Shown: positions 11,759 through 21,520 of the stretch, one piece after another
Position numbering within the stretch: position 1 is the stretch's first letter
How the letters are laid out: each line of letters opens with the position of its first letter
IMG/VR virus record: IMGVR_UViG_3300006175_000029
Coordinates: 1-24,038 of that record
Origin: a virus
DNA: 24,038 nt
Strand: one strand, 5' to 3'
Translations under genes and position numbers: made by a program
The notes under the pieces: generated by a model
The model's input: the letters and a program-made list of their open reading frames with translations, nothing else
The model's database searches: none
What the model was told of the DNA's origin: nothing

Positions 11759-11830
11759 GGCAGCGTAGCTCAGTGGTAGAGCAAGGACTTCATAAGTCCT
11801 GAGCCGGTGGTTCGATCCCACCCGCTGCCA
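11759..11830 (+). tRNA. tRNA with anticodon CAU (Met, or Ile2 if modified)
   Basis: A complete cloverleaf can be drawn. Acceptor GGCAGCG (11759-11765) pairs with CGCTGCC (11823-11829), and A11830 is the discriminator. The D-arm is GCTCAGTGGTAGAGC. The anticodon stem AGGAC/GTCCT encloses loop TTCATAA, anticodon CAT. The T-arm is GGTGG-TTCGATC-CCACC. CCA is not encoded. The G1-C72 pair rules out a typical initiator tRNA. CAU can be elongator Met, or Ile if the host TilS adds lysidine. It ends the plus island and overlaps the sulfotransferase 3' end on the other strand. Confidence 0.95.
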
Positions 11831-12353
11831 TAATATCCATGGGAAACAGCTTAGCCACCAGGGCCAGCGCGGTGTCGTTGTAGTACTCGCTCATAGACAG
11901 CTGAGCAGCAGAGTTTCGATGCTGTAGGTCGAGATCGCCAAGCCCGAGCTTGTCGCATATGGCTTTGAAGTCTTCCTCAAGCCACTCAAATTGCCCGAGC
12001 TCCACGTGACGATCGCCAGCGAAGTACTCCACCTGCTGCCGCATAAGCTGTTGGCCTATAATCCATTCAGCATCTTTGGGCGGGTTGGTGAGGAAGTCGA
12101 TGAAGCCTTGCGGTGTAGGGCGTCGCCTTCTTCGCACATGATATGCGTAGAGTGATAACGCCCGCTGCCACGGATTACGAACAAAGACGACCACTCGATA
12201 ATCGTGATACCCATTCAGAACGGAAATGGGCGAATGGATCCCATGGATCTGCACAATGTCCTGGACGCCTCGAGTGAAGGCCTCCGTAATCGATGATCCT
12301 GCGGTTCTGGGAATATGGACGAAGACAAACCGGTGCTTATGTGAGATCAGCAC
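11790..12353 (-). CDS. Sulfotransferase (PAPS-dependent, family 2-like)
   Basis: A 187-residue protein. HIPRTAGSSI (residues 13-22) is the 5'-phosphosulfate-binding loop, and VVVFVRNPWQRALSLY (residues 54-69), with Arg59 and Ser67, is the 3'-phosphate site. It should transfer sulfate from PAPS to a hydroxyl on a glycan or protein. The usual Lys of the first loop is Arg16. The GTG start follows the adhesin stop with no gap. The last 13 or so residues (AAGGIEPPAQDL and stop) are antisense to the tRNA, so the native C-terminus was probably altered. It is the last gene of the modification-adhesin unit. Confidence 0.83.
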   Translation of the reverse strand: MLISHKHRFVFVHIPRTAGSSITEAFTRGVQDIVQIHGIHSPISVLNGYHDYRVVVFVRNPWQRALSLYAYHVRRRRRPTPQGFIDFLTNPPKDAEWIIGQQLMRQQVEYFAGDRHVELGQFEWLEEDFKAICDKLGLGDLDLQHRNSAAQLSMSEYYNDTALALVAKLFPMDIMAAGGIEPPAQDL

Positions 12354-14372
12354 TTACGGCAGCGTTCCTGGCCTAATTGCTACTCCCCACACTAGCAGGT
12401 TATCCGTACCATTGCCAGTGAAGAAGTTGTTGAAGCCTTGTGCCACTTGGACTTCTGGGAAGGCCGGCACAAGGCCAAGATTGAATGTCGCCCACACACG
12501 CCACCAACCATTGCCCACACTCTGGCTACCAGTCGAGATAATCGTGGCAGATCCAGTGTGCTGTGTTAGCCCAACAAAGGAACCATCCGTTATGCTGAAG
12601 ATGGCGCCGATGGTACTGGTGAAGAAGCCTGGGTCATAGGCGACAAGCACTGGGTTCAAGCTGCCGGTTCCTGCGTGGAAATAACCGGACATGGTGTTGA
12701 CGCCGGTCGATCCCCCAGCAGCTGCAGTAGCAGTAATCCGGTGGCGATTATTATTCCCATCCACCGTGAGCTTCGCTGCTGTACCACCGCCCAATGGGTC
12801 AGTGCCAGCCGCTGCTGTCAGTGTAGCATTGGTCGTGCTCCACCCCGACGCTAGCCCAGCACCGGCTGGGTCTAGGTTCGGGGACGGCTCAATGCAATAA
12901 TAGTAGATCTTCCCGCTAGTGAGCCCAGAGCTTAGGTTTATAGTAACTGCCGTCGTGCTGGGGGCGGAGGCCATACTCGCATTGGAAGAGGTCGAGCTGG
13001 TGTTCGGCGTGCAGACCGGCGCATAGGTATAGGCCACAGCGAATGTCAGGGTGCACGCTGTTGGCGCTCCCGTCCCCGTCGTGATGATGCCAGCGGTGTC
13101 GTCACCTGCCACAGAGGGACTACTGCCGCATGAACTCACCGATGGGGTAAAACCGCGGCTGGATACGTGGCTACCGGGATATTGCGACAATGCCGACACA
13201 CCAGACACGGTGTTCGCTATATCCCCAAGGTTCGACCCCATGTGCGGCTGCACGACGCTTTGCGTGAAAGCATCAGCAAACAGATTGGTGGTATCAGTTA
13301 TCGCTACATTACGTTCGTTGATGGTCGACGAGGCGCCGAGGGAGCAGCTGGTACAGGTATAGAACGGCGCACCATCAACGCCCCAGGTATTGCCAGACAT
13401 CTGCACATTATCAGAGCCAAGGAAGGCTACATCGGTCGTACCACCGAAGTTAACGGCGTGCCCGGTGTTTCCAACGATGGAGGCACTGACATTGTTTAGC
13501 TTAAGGCAACCGATCTGGTCGCACATATTCCCGGTGATAGTAATCTCACCGCTGTTCTCAATGACTATACCCCAAGGGGCATCCTCGAAGCGATCGCCTA
13601 CAATCTGGACAGAGGCTGCGCCGTTTAAGTAGATCGCTGACCCGGCGGAGTTACCATTTGCAACGACAACGAAGTCATTGTGCGGGCCGTACACCTCATC
13701 CGAAACAAACCCGCCGTTACTAAAATCCCCACGAATTCCGCGATCGGTCTGGCCATAGAACAGGTTATCGTGGATATGTGCCAGCTGTGAGAAGACGGCC
13801 GTATGTCCTGCGATGCTGCCATTTGAGAACCTGTCAACGCCGTATTTGCACCAGAATAGGTTATTGTGGTCGATCTCGACACTGGTTGCATTCAGCGCAT
13901 TGATGTTATTGAATGTCGGACTAGAGCCGAAGTTACACCAGATATCAAGCCCGCGGATTACGTCACTATCCTGAAGCGCGAAGAACGCCTGACCCGCGGA
14001 GAATGATCCATTGTTGGGGCATTGAACGATGACCTGGCCATTGCTTTGCTGTGGCCCATTTGAGCCAGGGTTCGAGATATTGCTGGTCCCTTCGATAATC
14101 CGAAACGGGGGCACATTGATTTGCGAACAGACCTGCCAGGTGCCAGCAGCCATCTTCACCGGCTGGCGTCCAACCAAGGCATTGTTGATCGTGGTAACGT
14201 CGGCGGATGTGTTGGTGGGATAGATCACATTCCATCCCGCCATCCATTGGCTCAGCGTGTGCGAATTGCCCTGCGGCGACGTCACCGTTATTCCAGATCC
14301 TACGCCGGTCTGCGCATAGGCGCTCGATAGGACGCAGAACAACAGGAAGGCCGAGAGCAGGTATCTCTTCAT
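12354..14372 (-). CDS. Beta-helix adhesin / tailspike-like protein with signal peptide
   Basis: A 672-residue protein. Residues 1-20 are a Sec signal peptide (KR, then LLSAFLLFCVLSS, cleavage after AYA). Residues about 60-380 have repeated short strands with Asn and Gly turns (IDHNNLFW, IHDNLFYG, IVGDRFEDA, ITGNMCDQ, IVGNTGHA), a right-handed parallel beta-helix of the pectate-lyase fold. Residues about 410-500 form a Ser/Thr-rich Cys-containing module. The rest, with NGWWRVWATF and NLLVWGVAIRPG, resembles lectin-like adhesin ends of tail fibres. Function: receptor binding or glycan degradation. A signal peptide is unusual for a virion protein. Confidence 0.8.
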   Translation of the reverse strand: MKRYLLSAFLLFCVLSSAYAQTGVGSGITVTSPQGNSHTLSQWMAGWNVIYPTNTSADVTTINNALVGRQPVKMAAGTWQVCSQINVPPFRIIEGTSNISNPGSNGPQQSNGQVIVQCPNNGSFSAGQAFFALQDSDVIRGLDIWCNFGSSPTFNNINALNATSVEIDHNNLFWCKYGVDRFSNGSIAGHTAVFSQLAHIHDNLFYGQTDRGIRGDFSNGGFVSDEVYGPHNDFVVVANGNSAGSAIYLNGAASVQIVGDRFEDAPWGIVIENSGEITITGNMCDQIGCLKLNNVSASIVGNTGHAVNFGGTTDVAFLGSDNVQMSGNTWGVDGAPFYTCTSCSLGASSTINERNVAITDTTNLFADAFTQSVVQPHMGSNLGDIANTVSGVSALSQYPGSHVSSRGFTPSVSSCGSSPSVAGDDTAGIITTGTGAPTACTLTFAVAYTYAPVCTPNTSSTSSNASMASAPSTTAVTINLSSGLTSGKIYYYCIEPSPNLDPAGAGLASGWSTTNATLTAAAGTDPLGGGTAAKLTVDGNNNRHRITATAAAGGSTGVNTMSGYFHAGTGSLNPVLVAYDPGFFTSTIGAIFSITDGSFVGLTQHTGSATIISTGSQSVGNGWWRVWATFNLGLVPAFPEVQVAQGFNNFFTGNGTDNLLVWGVAIRPGTLP

Positions 14373-14632
14373 GAGAGGCGGATCATCAAGAAATTGCCGT
14401 TCCTATAAATGCCTCCAACAGGCACACCGCCTGTCCCAGCAGCGGTGTCATTGTCGTAACTTGGCGAAGAAGCCAGCGTCACACTCCCGGGGAGATTGAG
14501 GTACGACACAATGACATCTTCCATTAACTGTCGCAGGCGGGCCGCAGTGATCGCCCCACTTGGCTGTCCAGATGCCAGGACGTTATCCGCCTCCGCAGTT
14601 AGGTTGAGCGTGGTTTGAACGTTTCCGGCCAT
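14369..14632 (-). CDS. Small virion-like protein (87 aa)
   Basis: The C-terminus DNDTAAGTGGVPVGGIYRNG followed by NFLMIRLS is a pattern seen at the ends of small phage structural and fibre-associated proteins. The N-terminal part contains a helix AARLRQLMEDVIVSYLNL. It ends in an ATGA overlap with the adhesin start, so it may be a partner such as a connector or chaperone. AAGGAG lies four bases before ATG. Exact role unknown. Confidence 0.6.
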   Translation of the reverse strand: MAGNVQTTLNLTAEADNVLASGQPSGAITAARLRQLMEDVIVSYLNLPGSVTLASSPSYDNDTAAGTGGVPVGGIYRNGNFLMIRLS

Positions 14633-14660
14633 CGGACTCCTTGGGAACTAAAGGAACGGT

Positions 14661-15215
14661 TCAAAAGCCGCGCATCCGGAGATGTTCCTCCTGGGTGAAC
14701 CACGCAAGGACTGAGTACCGCACGCCAGAGCGTATTGGCGGTACTTCGTGTTTGAATGCCCGGCTGTTGGGGAACGCCACCAAGGTACCGGTCATCGGCG
14801 ATATCGTCATGCCGCGCTCGGGGAACGTCAGTTCGCCACCCTGATAATCTGTACCACAGGTGTTCAGGTATAGATTGCAGGTGTGGGAGCGGTGCGGTGT
14901 GTGGTTGGGACCACCCTCATCCGTGCAGTTATCGCAATGCGGCTCACAGAAATCGCCAGGGAAACTGGCTTTCAGTATGCAGTATTCTAGATGGACGAAT
15001 TGCTGGAAGACGCCGCGCACCAACTGCGTCATCTCGTCGCGGTACACCCGCAACGTGGCCAAGGCCGGTGGGTATATCGCCTCCCATGCTGGGATCTCGA
15101 TACGATTATCGGCAACCTTGTTGAGATATCTTTCGGACTGCAGCTTCATCGGCCAGATCAGGTCGTCACACAGCGACGCGGACAGAAAGTCCGAGCGAAC
15201 AAGAACATCGTTCAT
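14661..15215 (-). CDS. 2-oxoglutarate/Fe(II)-dependent oxygenase (prolyl hydroxylase-like) 1
   Basis: A 184-residue protein (ATG at 15215; a TTG one codon upstream is an alternative). The double-stranded beta-helix metal site is visible: His93-x-Asp95 in EPHCDN and distal His156 in AFKHEV, with Arg166 in GVRYS to bind 2-oxoglutarate. LYLNTCGTDYQGGELTFPE is the typical P4Hc core strand. It should hydroxylate a protein, nucleotide or small-molecule substrate using O2. It lies 16 bases downstream of a second oxygenase of the same family, with only partial similarity. Confidence 0.88.
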   Translation of the reverse strand: MNDVLVRSDFLSASLCDDLIWPMKLQSERYLNKVADNRIEIPAWEAIYPPALATLRVYRDEMTQLVRGVFQQFVHLEYCILKASFPGDFCEPHCDNCTDEGGPNHTPHRSHTCNLYLNTCGTDYQGGELTFPERGMTISPMTGTLVAFPNSRAFKHEVPPIRSGVRYSVLAWFTQEEHLRMRGF

Positions 15216-15231
15216 CAATCGCAGCGACCTT

Positions 15232-15783
15232 TCAAAGTACGACTCCTACCAAGGGATCTTGATGAGCTCGATTGCGCGTAAACCATGCGGGCGACGTGTA
15301 GCGTGCGCCACCTCGTGTGGCCTCGACTCCATGGCGAGTTACGGCAGGAAACAATATAAGGGAGCCTTGCACCGGCTGATAATATTCATTTGTCTCAGGG
15401 AAATATATCCGCCCACCTTCATAATCGCTATTAAGGTAAATGACCCCCGCCCACTCACGCCACGGTGTCGCGTTCGGGGAGCCATCTGGGTGGCGATCAT
15501 CCTGATGCGGACTCATGGCCTCTGTAGTCCAGCGCACTATTTGGATGGTGTCTGGGTACATCTGTTGGCGGGCGGCTTCACTAGCGGCGATTGTCTCCCG
15601 ATTGCGCCAACTCTGCATAATTCGTCGCGTCTGAATTTCGCTTTCAGGAAAGCTGGTGATGAACATCACCCGGTGGTCGAAGAACGGGTCACCGTAGACA
15701 TGGGCATTAGCACACCATCTGTCATAGGCTTCAATAACTGTGCGGCATTCGTCCGGACTGGCAAACTGTGCAATCTCGATCAT
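15232..15783 (-). CDS. 2-oxoglutarate/Fe(II)-dependent oxygenase (prolyl hydroxylase-like) 2
   Basis: A 183-residue protein. His93-x-Asp95 in SPHQDD, His151 in VTRHGVE and Arg161 in GARYTSP are the iron and 2-oxoglutarate ligands. AGVIYLNSDYEGGRIYFPE is the core strand pair. The ligand spacing nearly equals that of the next oxygenase, suggesting an ancient duplication or the recruitment of two related enzymes. Its start overlaps the stop of the DUF6065 gene as ATGA. Product unknown; tandem hydroxylases in a virion-adhesin operon suggest modification of a phage or host surface polymer. Confidence 0.88.
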   Translation of the reverse strand: MIEIAQFASPDECRTVIEAYDRWCANAHVYGDPFFDHRVMFITSFPESEIQTRRIMQSWRNRETIAASEAARQQMYPDTIQIVRWTTEAMSPHQDDRHPDGSPNATPWREWAGVIYLNSDYEGGRIYFPETNEYYQPVQGSLILFPAVTRHGVEATRGGARYTSPAWFTRNRAHQDPLVGVVL

Positions 15784-16514
15784 GCCAGGCTCCCACGTTT
15801 ATCTATAGGAGCTTTCAGCCGCACCCTGTTGGTATGCGCCAAATCTGTCTTCTGCCCATCGGCATATCGGCCGACGAAATAATCCTTATCCCAAGGATCT
15901 TTGATCGCAGTCGGATCGCCTTGTGCAAGAAGATCCCGCATCCTGGTACGACGCTCACGCCAAGCATTATGCTGCGCAGAAAACTGCTGGTCGTCAGTTA
16001 TGTTACGAATGACTGGCTGTACATTATCCTGCACATTGGCATGGATTACGCATATCTGCGCATAAGGCTCCCCAGCACTCCAAGCCACCCGACCAGGACG
16101 AGTGAACTTGTAGTTCATGGTGAATGTGTAGGGTAGCCAGTCGCTCTCGACGATGCCGGTCATTGGCGCCACACCATCCTTGAACTGGTTGGTGGGGCCG
16201 GTGATCAGCAAGTGGTACCCGGGCGGTGTGCGGAAGATGTAGGAAACGTCGAGCGTCAGGATGCCGGTGGCAAAATTGCTTTGAGCTTGGTAGAACGGAT
16301 CACCCTTGATTATTCTGACATCAGGTAGGCCGGGACCTCCTGTCCATTCGGCTATAACGTCGCACGGCATGAGGACTTGCCACCCGTACGTATTGGCGAT
16401 GGTGAGGGGCAAACACCGGTAGGCATGCCGGTTCTGGTCCATCCAGTCGCGCTCGCTCGGAGCTGGCACCAATTCTTGTGGATTATTCGTAACGGCGAGT
16501 GCTTCGAGAAGCAT
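15780..16514 (-). CDS. DUF6065 family protein
   Basis: A 244-residue protein. PAPSERDWMDQNRHAYRCLPL, IANTYGWQVLMPCDV, IFRTPPGYHLLITGPTNQFKD and MTGIVESDWLPYTFTMNYKF with TRPGRVAWSAGEP are strongly characteristic of DUF6065. Its function is unestablished; the family is strand-rich and often occurs near oxygenases or glycan-related genes in my recollection. Here it heads the operon that continues through two 2OG oxygenases to the adhesin and sulfotransferase, with overlaps or very short gaps. AGGATTCTG before the ATG is the likely ribosome site. It starts about 80 bases after the terminator element. Confidence 0.8.
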   Translation of the reverse strand: MLLEALAVTNNPQELVPAPSERDWMDQNRHAYRCLPLTIANTYGWQVLMPCDVIAEWTGGPGLPDVRIIKGDPFYQAQSNFATGILTLDVSYIFRTPPGYHLLITGPTNQFKDGVAPMTGIVESDWLPYTFTMNYKFTRPGRVAWSAGEPYAQICVIHANVQDNVQPVIRNITDDQQFSAQHNAWRERRTRMRDLLAQGDPTAIKDPWDKDYFVGRYADGQKTDLAHTNRVRLKAPIDKRGSLA

Positions 16515-16651: not shown

Positions 16652-17011
16652 TTACGGCCCGGGCGGCGGAGTGACGACCTTATCGGCAGGAGCGCCGAGG
16701 GCCAGGGTTAGGACCTTCGCCTCATGCGACGGGCCGAGGGTCACGGTGACATCCTCAGAGACGCCGGTAAGGGTATCCACACCCGGGGTCGGATCGCCTT
16801 CAGCAGTAACCGAAATCCGCCCAGTGCCTGGCGCTACCGTCTGTACAGCCGCACTCATGCCGTCAGCAGCGACCACAACAGTCAGCACGGTCTCATCCGA
16901 ACTTGCCCAGATCGGCACACCGAACAGTGGGGCAGCGACCCCAGCAGAATCAGCAGCCGAGAGCGCTACGGAGGGATAGAATTGGTCAGTCGTTAGTGTA
17001 GCCATTGACAT
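16652..17011 (-). CDS. Ig-like domain virion protein
   Basis: A 119-residue protein. LTVVVAADGMSAAVQTVAPGTGR followed by ISVTAEGD (two short blocks) and VSEDVTVTLGPSHEAKVLTL are typical of a bacterial Ig-like (BIG2-type) fold in phage decoration and tail proteins. The C-terminus is proline-rich. Such domains decorate capsids or tails and bind carbohydrate weakly. AAGGAG is four to five bases before ATG, and the start overlaps the previous stop by one base. It lies immediately upstream of the terminator element. Confidence 0.72.
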   Translation of the reverse strand: MSMATLTTDQFYPSVALSAADSAGVAAPLFGVPIWASSDETVLTVVVAADGMSAAVQTVAPGTGRISVTAEGDPTPGVDTLTGVSEDVTVTLGPSHEAKVLTLALGAPADKVVTPPPGP

Positions 17012-20317: not shown

Positions 20318-21520
20318 TTAGCCGATTCCGTCAAGATAATATAGGCTCTCACCGTAGACCCGCTCTACCACGCCGAGACGGCCGTAGTAGGTCACGATCT
20401 GGAACAGGTTGCGGTACTCGAGCGGGGTCCGCTGCAGGGGCACCAGCGGGAAGCGCACGCGATTCCGCTCCTTGGTGTACACCATCAGCCGATCGCTAGA
20501 CGCCGCACCCCGGCCTGTTAGCCACTTCACCGGCTGGATGTTCAGCGGCTTGCCGTACGCCGCGTTGCTCAGCGAGTTATTGCGCAGGAACTCGAGAATA
20601 CTAACATTTCCCGCGCTCGAGACCTTCTGGCTGACCAGATAACCGAACTCGACGGGAGGTACCCGCAGCTCGGTAGGCATCAGCGCCCAGCCAGCGTTGG
20701 TCCAGCACTGCGTCAGTGCGTAGTTAACATCGGCCAGGATCGCATCCGGGGTTTTATCGACCCACTTCAGCGACGTTGAATTGCCGGTAGGCGAGGAAGC
20801 ACCTGCCTGCGCAGCATTTGTGCTGGACACCGGCTGATCCGTTGCCGCACAGCCCTGGGCCGTCGTGGCATTTGCCAAACCGACCTGACCAAGTGTAGAG
20901 TCCCCAATGTACACCTGCTCGTCGATGTCCATCTGGTATTTTATTTTGAGGCCATCGTATTTTTGTACATCTATTGGGCGGCCCAGCTTCTGAGCACTTG
21001 CCAATTCTGGGAGCGTATACTTCACCTCAAGCGCCCATAGGTACAAAGGATGCGTAGTCTTACCAATATCGAGAGCGATACCAGTTATCTGATTCGCGTC
21101 CTTGGAGAGCCACGCCTTACCTGACGGCACGATACCACCAGCTGATGCAAAGCTGCTGTTGGTGAAGCTTGAAACTTCATCAGCAATCGTCACATCCTCT
21201 CTTAGGTCAATATCCCTGCCCCAAGTAACGGACGCTAATGGATCATGTAATTCCTGGTCCAACCTCTCCAATTCACCAATTAAAAATGCACCTGTACTAT
21301 CCTTAGTAAAGGTGAATTCATCGAACGTCATAAATGAGTCCGTCGTGAAATGACGGCGACGCTCGGGCTGGGTACCTTCCTTGTACCCCTTCATCCAATC
21401 GATAACCTGTCCATTATCGTAGCGGATCAGGTTACCCTGCACACGCGGATCGCTGTGGCCGGGCAGGATCAGATTCGGGGACAATGCACTTGATCCCCGA
21501 TAGGCGAGACGATTGCTCAT
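20318..21520 (-). CDS. Major capsid protein (DUF2184 family)
   Basis: A 400-residue protein. The C-terminal LVPLQRTPLEYRNLFQIVTYYGRLGVVERVYGESLYYLDGI is, in pieces, the typical end of DUF2184 capsid proteins. The E-loop-like region near residues 50-110 and YLWALEVKYTLPELASAQKLG in the middle also fit. It should form the HK97-fold icosahedral shell. AGGAGTAC (21523-21530) is its ribosome site. The gene follows the cement gene and precedes small unknowns. Residues about 215-250 are Ala/Ser/Thr-rich, likely an exposed insertion. Confidence 0.9.
   Translation of the reverse strand: MSNRLAYRGSSALSPNLILPGHSDPRVQGNLIRYDNGQVIDWMKGYKEGTQPERRRHFTTDSFMTFDEFTFTKDSTGAFLIGELERLDQELHDPLASVTWGRDIDLREDVTIADEVSSFTNSSFASAGGIVPSGKAWLSKDANQITGIALDIGKTTHPLYLWALEVKYTLPELASAQKLGRPIDVQKYDGLKIKYQMDIDEQVYIGDSTLGQVGLANATTAQGCAATDQPVSSTNAAQAGASSPTGNSTSLKWVDKTPDAILADVNYALTQCWTNAGWALMPTELRVPPVEFGYLVSQKVSSAGNVSILEFLRNNSLSNAAYGKPLNIQPVKWLTGRGAASSDRLMVYTKERNRVRFPLVPLQRTPLEYRNLFQIVTYYGRLGVVERVYGESLYYLDGIG

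Follow-up and report, generated by a model that had tools for sequence, protein, structure and literature searches.

A DUF6065–hydroxylase gene cassette next to a putative virion spike suggests that phages may modify their own attachment proteins

An IMG/VR virus fragment of 24,038 nucleotides from a soil phage, analysed here over its full length (hereafter, the window), carries six minus-strand genes at positions 11790–16514 that encode a DUF6065 protein, two 2-oxoglutarate (2OG)–Fe(II) oxygenases (OGa and OGb), an 87-residue protein (p87), an adhesin and a sulfotransferase. This arrangement raises the question of whether the enzymes act on the adhesin, on another virion protein or on something unrelated to the virion. 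As originally predicted, the six genes are consecutive and co-directional, with overlaps or gaps of no more than 28 bases: DUF6065 and OGa overlap by 4 bp, OGa and OGb are separated by 13 bp and OGb and p87 by 28 bp, p87 and the adhesin overlap by 4 bp, and the adhesin and sulfotransferase genes directly abut (gap 0). The families assigned to DUF6065, the two oxygenases and the sulfotransferase were likewise confirmed, with all Pfam matches above their cut-offs. A second contig, from a separate IMG/VR record, contains the cassette at 99.9–100% protein identity, so the arrangement is not an assembly artefact. Because the major capsid protein gene lies upstream on the same strand, the cassette forms the 3′ end of a head-gene cluster. 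It sits at a strand switch with a tRNA gene adjoining, and its GC content (0.550) is slightly lower than that of the remainder (0.574). The only relatives found for the major capsid protein were in the near-identical contig and in two distant contigs that lack the cassette. When a collection of named phages was searched at the DNA and protein levels, nothing matched the cassette, DUF6065, the sulfotransferase, the adhesin or a fibronectin-III (FnIII) protein from the oxygenase arrays described below.

Features of the cassette and its surroundings in the window, with related copies from other loci in the last line
Feature	Position	Strand	Evidence
tRNA, CAU anticodon	11759..11830	+	ARAGORN; Rfam RF00005, 69.5 bits
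Sulfotransferase, 187 aa, GTG start	11790..12353	-	PF03567; phrog_3347; cofactor loops
Adhesin, 672 aa	12354..14372	-	NF048003 at residues 508-671; phrog_5939
p87, 87 aa, likely spike adaptor	14369..14632	-	C-terminal motif GGVPVGGIYRNGNFLMIRLS
OGb, 2OG-Fe(II) oxygenase, related to OGa	14661..15218	-	PF13640, 1.7e-15; HxD...H...R
OGa, 2OG-Fe(II) oxygenase, prolyl-hydroxylase-like	15232..15783	-	PF13640, 7e-10; HxD...H...R
DUF6065 protein, 244 aa	15780..16514	-	PF19541, E=1e-80
119-aa protein, directly upstream of DUF6065	16652..17011	-	Sequence; role inferred
Major capsid protein, upstream of cassette	20318..21520	-	PF09950, E=1e-69
DUF6065-like paralogue	L264 5052-5777; L266 5054-5779; L327 5156-5893; L315 3583-4377		

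The iron- and 2OG-binding residues of the HxD...H...R motif are intact in both OGa (H93, D95, H151 and R161) and OGb (H94, D96, H157 and R167). Their PF13640 scores are 40.3 and 58.2 bits, respectively, against a cut-off of 27. OGa matches prolyl 3-hydroxylase 1 with E=3.8e-6, and OGb gives weak matches to PKHD-hydroxylase and LH3. A profile built on the oxygenases recovers prolyl 3-hydroxylase 1 (1e-17), prolyl 4-hydroxylases (7e-15) and LH3 (3e-9) as solved relatives. By family the two enzymes are of the prolyl/lysyl-hydroxylase type, and they would hydroxylate peptidyl side chains. With the prolyl 3- and 4-hydroxylases and LH3, the phage enzymes share sequence kinship and the conserved Fe/2OG-binding residues, and those encoded in arrays adjoin proline-rich or collagen-like proteins. 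They differ in being short (~185 aa), phage-encoded and clustered with DUF6065. The neighbours of OGa and OGb in the window are not collagen-like.

The proteins encoded beside these enzymes are consistent with a surface spike. The C-terminal 164 residues of the adhesin match the NCBIfam model NF048003 'GTA_spike_fiber' (42.8 bits, cut-off 36), a model that is not specific to head spikes, given that it also matches 5 of 14 control genomes, three of them above the cut-off. A further match is to the tail protein family phrog_5939 (7.5e-9). The adhesin had been described as a beta-helix protein with a signal peptide. By eye, its N terminus is signal-peptide-like, and its N-terminal part is probably, although weakly indicated, a right-handed beta-helix, judging from repeats seen by eye and a NosD match of 15.6 bits, below the cut-off of 23.6. 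A single-sequence AlphaFold2 model of the repeat region, made without an alignment, was uninformative (pLDDT 39). The description is best amended to a protein ending in a head-spike-fibre domain match and encoded in a head-gene cluster, and its gene, downstream of that for the major capsid protein, would place the protein on the head. The p87 protein, previously called virion-like, has no family match, yet larger phage tail-region proteins (L331, L333 and L334/L335) end in the same C-terminal motif. In three loci (L332, L334 and L335), the next product after a p87-related sequence is a long protein whose N terminus resembles a signal peptide. We therefore regard p87 as the likely spike adaptor and the adhesin as the likely spike fibre. 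The head spikes GhsA/GhsB of RcGTA (rcc01079/rcc01080; PMC8601537, PMC6854486) offer a parallel: the adhesin carries the GTA_spike_fiber domain, and in both cases a small gene accompanies a fibre gene. The RcGTA spike genes, however, are at an ectopic locus (PMC8601537, PMC6854486), whereas those of the cassette lie in the head-gene cluster. A 661-residue protein encoded upstream of DUF6065 in another locus (L090) was compared with the adhesin and shows no similarity to it.

Whether these genes belong together was assessed by co-occurrence. A DUF6065 profile search returned 149 stretches from viruses and 486 from genomes, the best 80 of each being read, and the loci were annotated by local gene calling and profile searches. 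The DUF6065 scan covered 49 viral clusters and took no account of 2OG oxygenases or sulfotransferases. Gene order was shuffled within loci to obtain p values, which serve as guides only, since the clusters are in part related by descent: DUF6065 stands next to a PF13640-like oxygenase in four of the eight loci having one (p=0.014), to a 2OG oxygenase of any type (PF13640-like, PF13759-type or motif-only) in 9 of 14 (p=5e-5), and to a sulfotransferase in three of three (p=0.0017). The DUF6065 gene overlaps or abuts an oxygenase gene in several separate viral clusters; three further phage clusters show a 4-base overlap between DUF6065 and a sulfotransferase gene. A second group of oxygenase-like proteins beside DUF6065 (L099, L101, L104 and L105) keeps the HxD...H motif and was counted separately because it has no PDB or Pfam match. 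In the reverse scan, DUF6065 or a divergent paralogue was found within ~6 kb in 65 of 79 viral oxygenase loci, a proportion that does not describe all viral oxygenases, since these loci are the ones closest to the window enzyme; the loci are often arrays of 4–10 oxygenases. Adjacency no better than chance had been named beforehand as the finding that would speak against the original prediction; the association instead exceeds chance. DUF6065 and the 2OG oxygenases recur together in uncultured phages, and the expectation that they and the sulfotransferase would be found together close to genes for adhesins is borne out. The further proposal, that hydroxyls are installed and then sulfated in a fixed sequence, is not, because the sulfotransferase is optional: a Pfam sulfotransferase match is present in only 5 of 30 DUF6065/2OG contigs. 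The overall reading thus stands in part.

The strongest indication of a substrate comes from the neighbours of the arrays, which lie between tail-fibre genes. Clusters holding both DUF6065 and oxygenases numbered 49 (<75% DUF6065 identity). Among 64 array-flanking proteins, 15 contain fn3 domains, six the Peptidase_S74 tail-fibre chaperone and three collagen repeats; many flanking proteins match tail-fibre or spike PHROGs, and CBM domains also occur. The gene directly upstream of the array usually encodes an FnIII protein with proline-rich repeats at its end, typically FFPPFFPP or PPGFFAPP. Taking as proline-rich any protein with a 30-residue stretch that is at least 30% proline, the upstream gene qualifies in 26 of 33 clusters compared with 11 of 141 other plus-strand ORFs from the same loci (Fisher p=3e-16), a background that includes unfiltered ORFs. 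One or more of the upstream ORFs, that of L092 among them, may not be genuine. The array oxygenases match prolyl 3-hydroxylase 1 (8.6e-6) and prolyl 4-hydroxylase (5e-5) among solved structures, and such relatives of collagen prolyl and lysyl hydroxylases would be a natural match to proline-rich neighbours. Comparable placements occur elsewhere. In L257, a sulfotransferase gene lies between the proline-rich protein gene and the array; in L090, a gap of 3 bp separates DUF6065 from a following beta-helix protein (PF13229, 1e-13), after which come a small protein and a 2OG gene; and DUF6065 immediately follows a collagen-repeat protein (4e-42) in L108 and a capsid protein in L107, and 9 bp downstream of an autotransporter on Sinorhizobium plasmids. 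As a separate observation, three of the proline-rich FnIII proteins (L304 3129–4409, L269 1664–2992 and L257 1–933) seem to have a Hint/intein-like C-terminal domain. Pfam Intein_splicing and Hint_2 matches are found among the array flanks, and these ends suggest self-processing of the proline-rich FnIII virion proteins.

From gene order, family membership, this recurrent association and the proline-rich neighbours in relatives, we infer a scheme of catalysis, substrates, steps and effect on adsorption. In that scheme, which we judge about as probable as its alternatives combined, peptidyl hydroxylases act together with DUF6065 on spike or fibre proteins, and sulfation is optional. The p87 protein and the adhesin would form a host-binding surface spike, as their motif and domain suggest. 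OGa and OGb, being of the prolyl/lysyl-hydroxylase type, may hydroxylate the spike or another virion protein encoded nearby, of which the 119-aa protein is an example. DUF6065 would act as a beta-clip partner of the hydroxylases, probably in substrate recognition or further tailoring. Where present, the sulfotransferase could use PAPS to sulfate a hydroxyl, either of the spike or of a surface glycan, and the outcome would be altered spike stability or receptor binding. The compact operon around spike genes and the DUF6065–2OG association in two separate scans support modification, whereas T4-like replication contexts, sulfotransferase-free contigs and bacterial DUF6065 genes without 2OG or adhesin neighbours count against it. 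Proline makes up only 4% of the window adhesin, so the clue from the relatives does not transfer to it directly; the residue hydroxylated there could be Pro, Lys, Asn or Asp, or the target could instead be in the 119-aa protein. The latter has no Pfam or PHROG match, ends in '...VVTPPPGP' and adjoins DUF6065 directly upstream, which makes it a candidate substrate if it corresponds to the proline-rich proteins that precede the arrays. A broader version, to which we give rather less than an even chance, is that DUF6065 and hydroxylase-like arrays, sometimes with a sulfotransferase, constitute a widespread, undescribed phage system that hydroxylates, and in places sulfates, fibre and spike proteins of proline-rich or beta-helical make-up, thereby tuning receptor-binding proteins.

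The sulfotransferase also brings cell-surface glycans into consideration. Its PF03567 (Sulfotransfer_2) match of 27.6 bits exceeds the cut-off of 22, and both cofactor loops are kept, 'HIPRTAGSS' (5′-PSB-like) and 'VRNPWQRALS' (3′-PB-like), which bears out the assignment as a PAPS-type enzyme. It also matches phrog_3347 (4.7e-13), a family annotated as galactose-3-O-sulfotransferase. The sulfotransferase, with or without the oxygenases, might alter a polysaccharide of the cell surface, perhaps as a barrier to superinfection, with the adhesin recognizing that polysaccharide or being screened by it. DUF6065–sulfotransferase pairs in L158, L165 and L168 lie, by eye, within islands of glycosyltransferase-like and methyltransferase-like genes, in keeping with this possibility. 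However, the solved relatives of the oxygenases are mainly peptide hydroxylases, and the arrays are found among virion genes rather than glycan genes; we consider a glycan target unlikely.

The structure predicted for DUF6065 points in another direction, to nucleotides. The protein matches PF19541 over profile positions 1–236 of 236 (271 bits), and its AlphaFold2 model is confident (pLDDT 91). In a Foldseek search of the PDB, the 50 matches listed are dUTPases or dUTPase complexes, with target-normalized TM scores for the monomer model mostly of 0.5–0.7 against dUTPases; among viral structures, uncharacterized phage proteins come first, followed largely by dUTPases. DUF6065 might on this basis be a dUTPase-superfamily enzyme that acts with TET/JBP-like oxygenases on nucleotides or bases. 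Many T4-like contigs have DUF6065 beside replication or nucleotide genes (DNA polymerase, dUTPase), a placement in keeping with a nucleotide-related role, and in L109, L110, L133 and L134 the gene is directly downstream, within ~4 bases, of a dUTPase gene with canonical motifs. Alignment with hhalign places 'GIVESDW...GEPYAQI' of DUF6065 on dUTPase motif III/IV, although not significantly (E=0.097). By contrast, a consensus built from 64 DUF6065 proteins has no Gly-rich motif V (GGFGSTG-like), and in it an invariant Glu (E123) occupies the motif III Asp slot and a Trp the Tyr slot. DUF6065, at 244 aa, also has extra N- and C-terminal parts relative to dUTPases, with which it has in common the predicted beta-clip fold and the motif III/IV-like region. 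We predict a dUTPase-like beta-clip fold for DUF6065, but the lack of motif V, the Glu substitution and the non-significant sequence homology lead us not to call it a dUTPase. The oxygenases, moreover, are prolyl-hydroxylase-like rather than TET/JBP-like (one array oxygenase has a weak Tet_JBP match, E=0.057), and many divergent oxygenases arrayed among fibre genes are hard to square with a nucleotide substrate, which we rate as improbable, below the glycan alternative.

Phages, and cyanophages above all, carry many 2OG oxygenases; cyanophage S-SCSM1 has 24 such genes, whose viral functions were not specifically investigated (PMC9602691). They are described as auxiliary metabolic genes and, as here, include multiple divergent PF13640/PF13759 enzymes per phage (PMC9602691). 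Two oxygenase queries of the named-phage collection matched only cyanophage or marine-virus oxygenases, whereas two DUF6065 queries of named phage records gave no match. A last alternative, which we rate as improbable as the nucleotide one, is that the cassette is a moron with an auxiliary metabolic role, directed at small molecules or at the 2-oxoglutarate/nitrogen metabolism of the host, and lies next to the spike by chance. The predicted effect of the S-SCSM1 genes on 2-oxoglutarate levels (PMC9602691), the strand switch beside a tRNA gene and the lower GC content would allow this; the recurrent link to DUF6065 and to fibre or proline-rich neighbours in many contigs speaks against it.

The DUF6065–hydroxylase pair beside receptor-binding genes in many phages suggests, then, that phages decorate their own attachment proteins. 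A limited literature search, with most subscription journals outside its scope, found no match for DUF6065 by name and nothing on topic for tail fibres with hydroxylases or sulfotransferases. The tie of 2OG oxygenases to DUF6065 and to proline-repeat fibre genes yields a substrate hypothesis that can be tested directly, and it sets an uncharacterized family in a genomic context. If correct, phage adhesin chemistry would include an unrecognized layer, the hydroxylation and sulfation of adhesins after translation, and hydroxyproline-type chemistry would be a tool for tuning phage receptor-binding proteins.

Several further features of these loci were observed. A divergent DUF6065-like paralogue ('WKACPA...PFNR...GIIDNDK...GTPYAQI') forms a tandem pair with DUF6065 in many of the arrays. 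It is ~20% identical to DUF6065; one first copy that was checked passes Pfam (2.7e-28) and its neighbouring paralogue fails, with no Pfam match for the L264 copy and no NCBIfam match for the L266 copy, so the label rests on our own profile. In L099 (7962–9512), DUF6065 is fused to a long C-terminal extension that ends in a zinc-ribbon-like DUF6171 match (sub-threshold, E=0.0025). On bacterial chromosomes, DUF6065 is usually without 2OG or adhesin neighbours. Its neighbourhood on Caulobacterales chromosomes is housekeeping-like and offers no functional lead, and genes that appear from sequence to be thioredoxin-like, YbaK-like and LON-domain-like recur near it in Caulobacterales and Hyphomonadaceae (L009–L088). 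Finally, the CAU tRNA gene of the window is antisense to the 3′ end of the sulfotransferase gene, overlapping its last ~13 codons, and the C-terminal residues 'GGIEPPAQDL' of the sulfotransferase are read across the tRNA gene.
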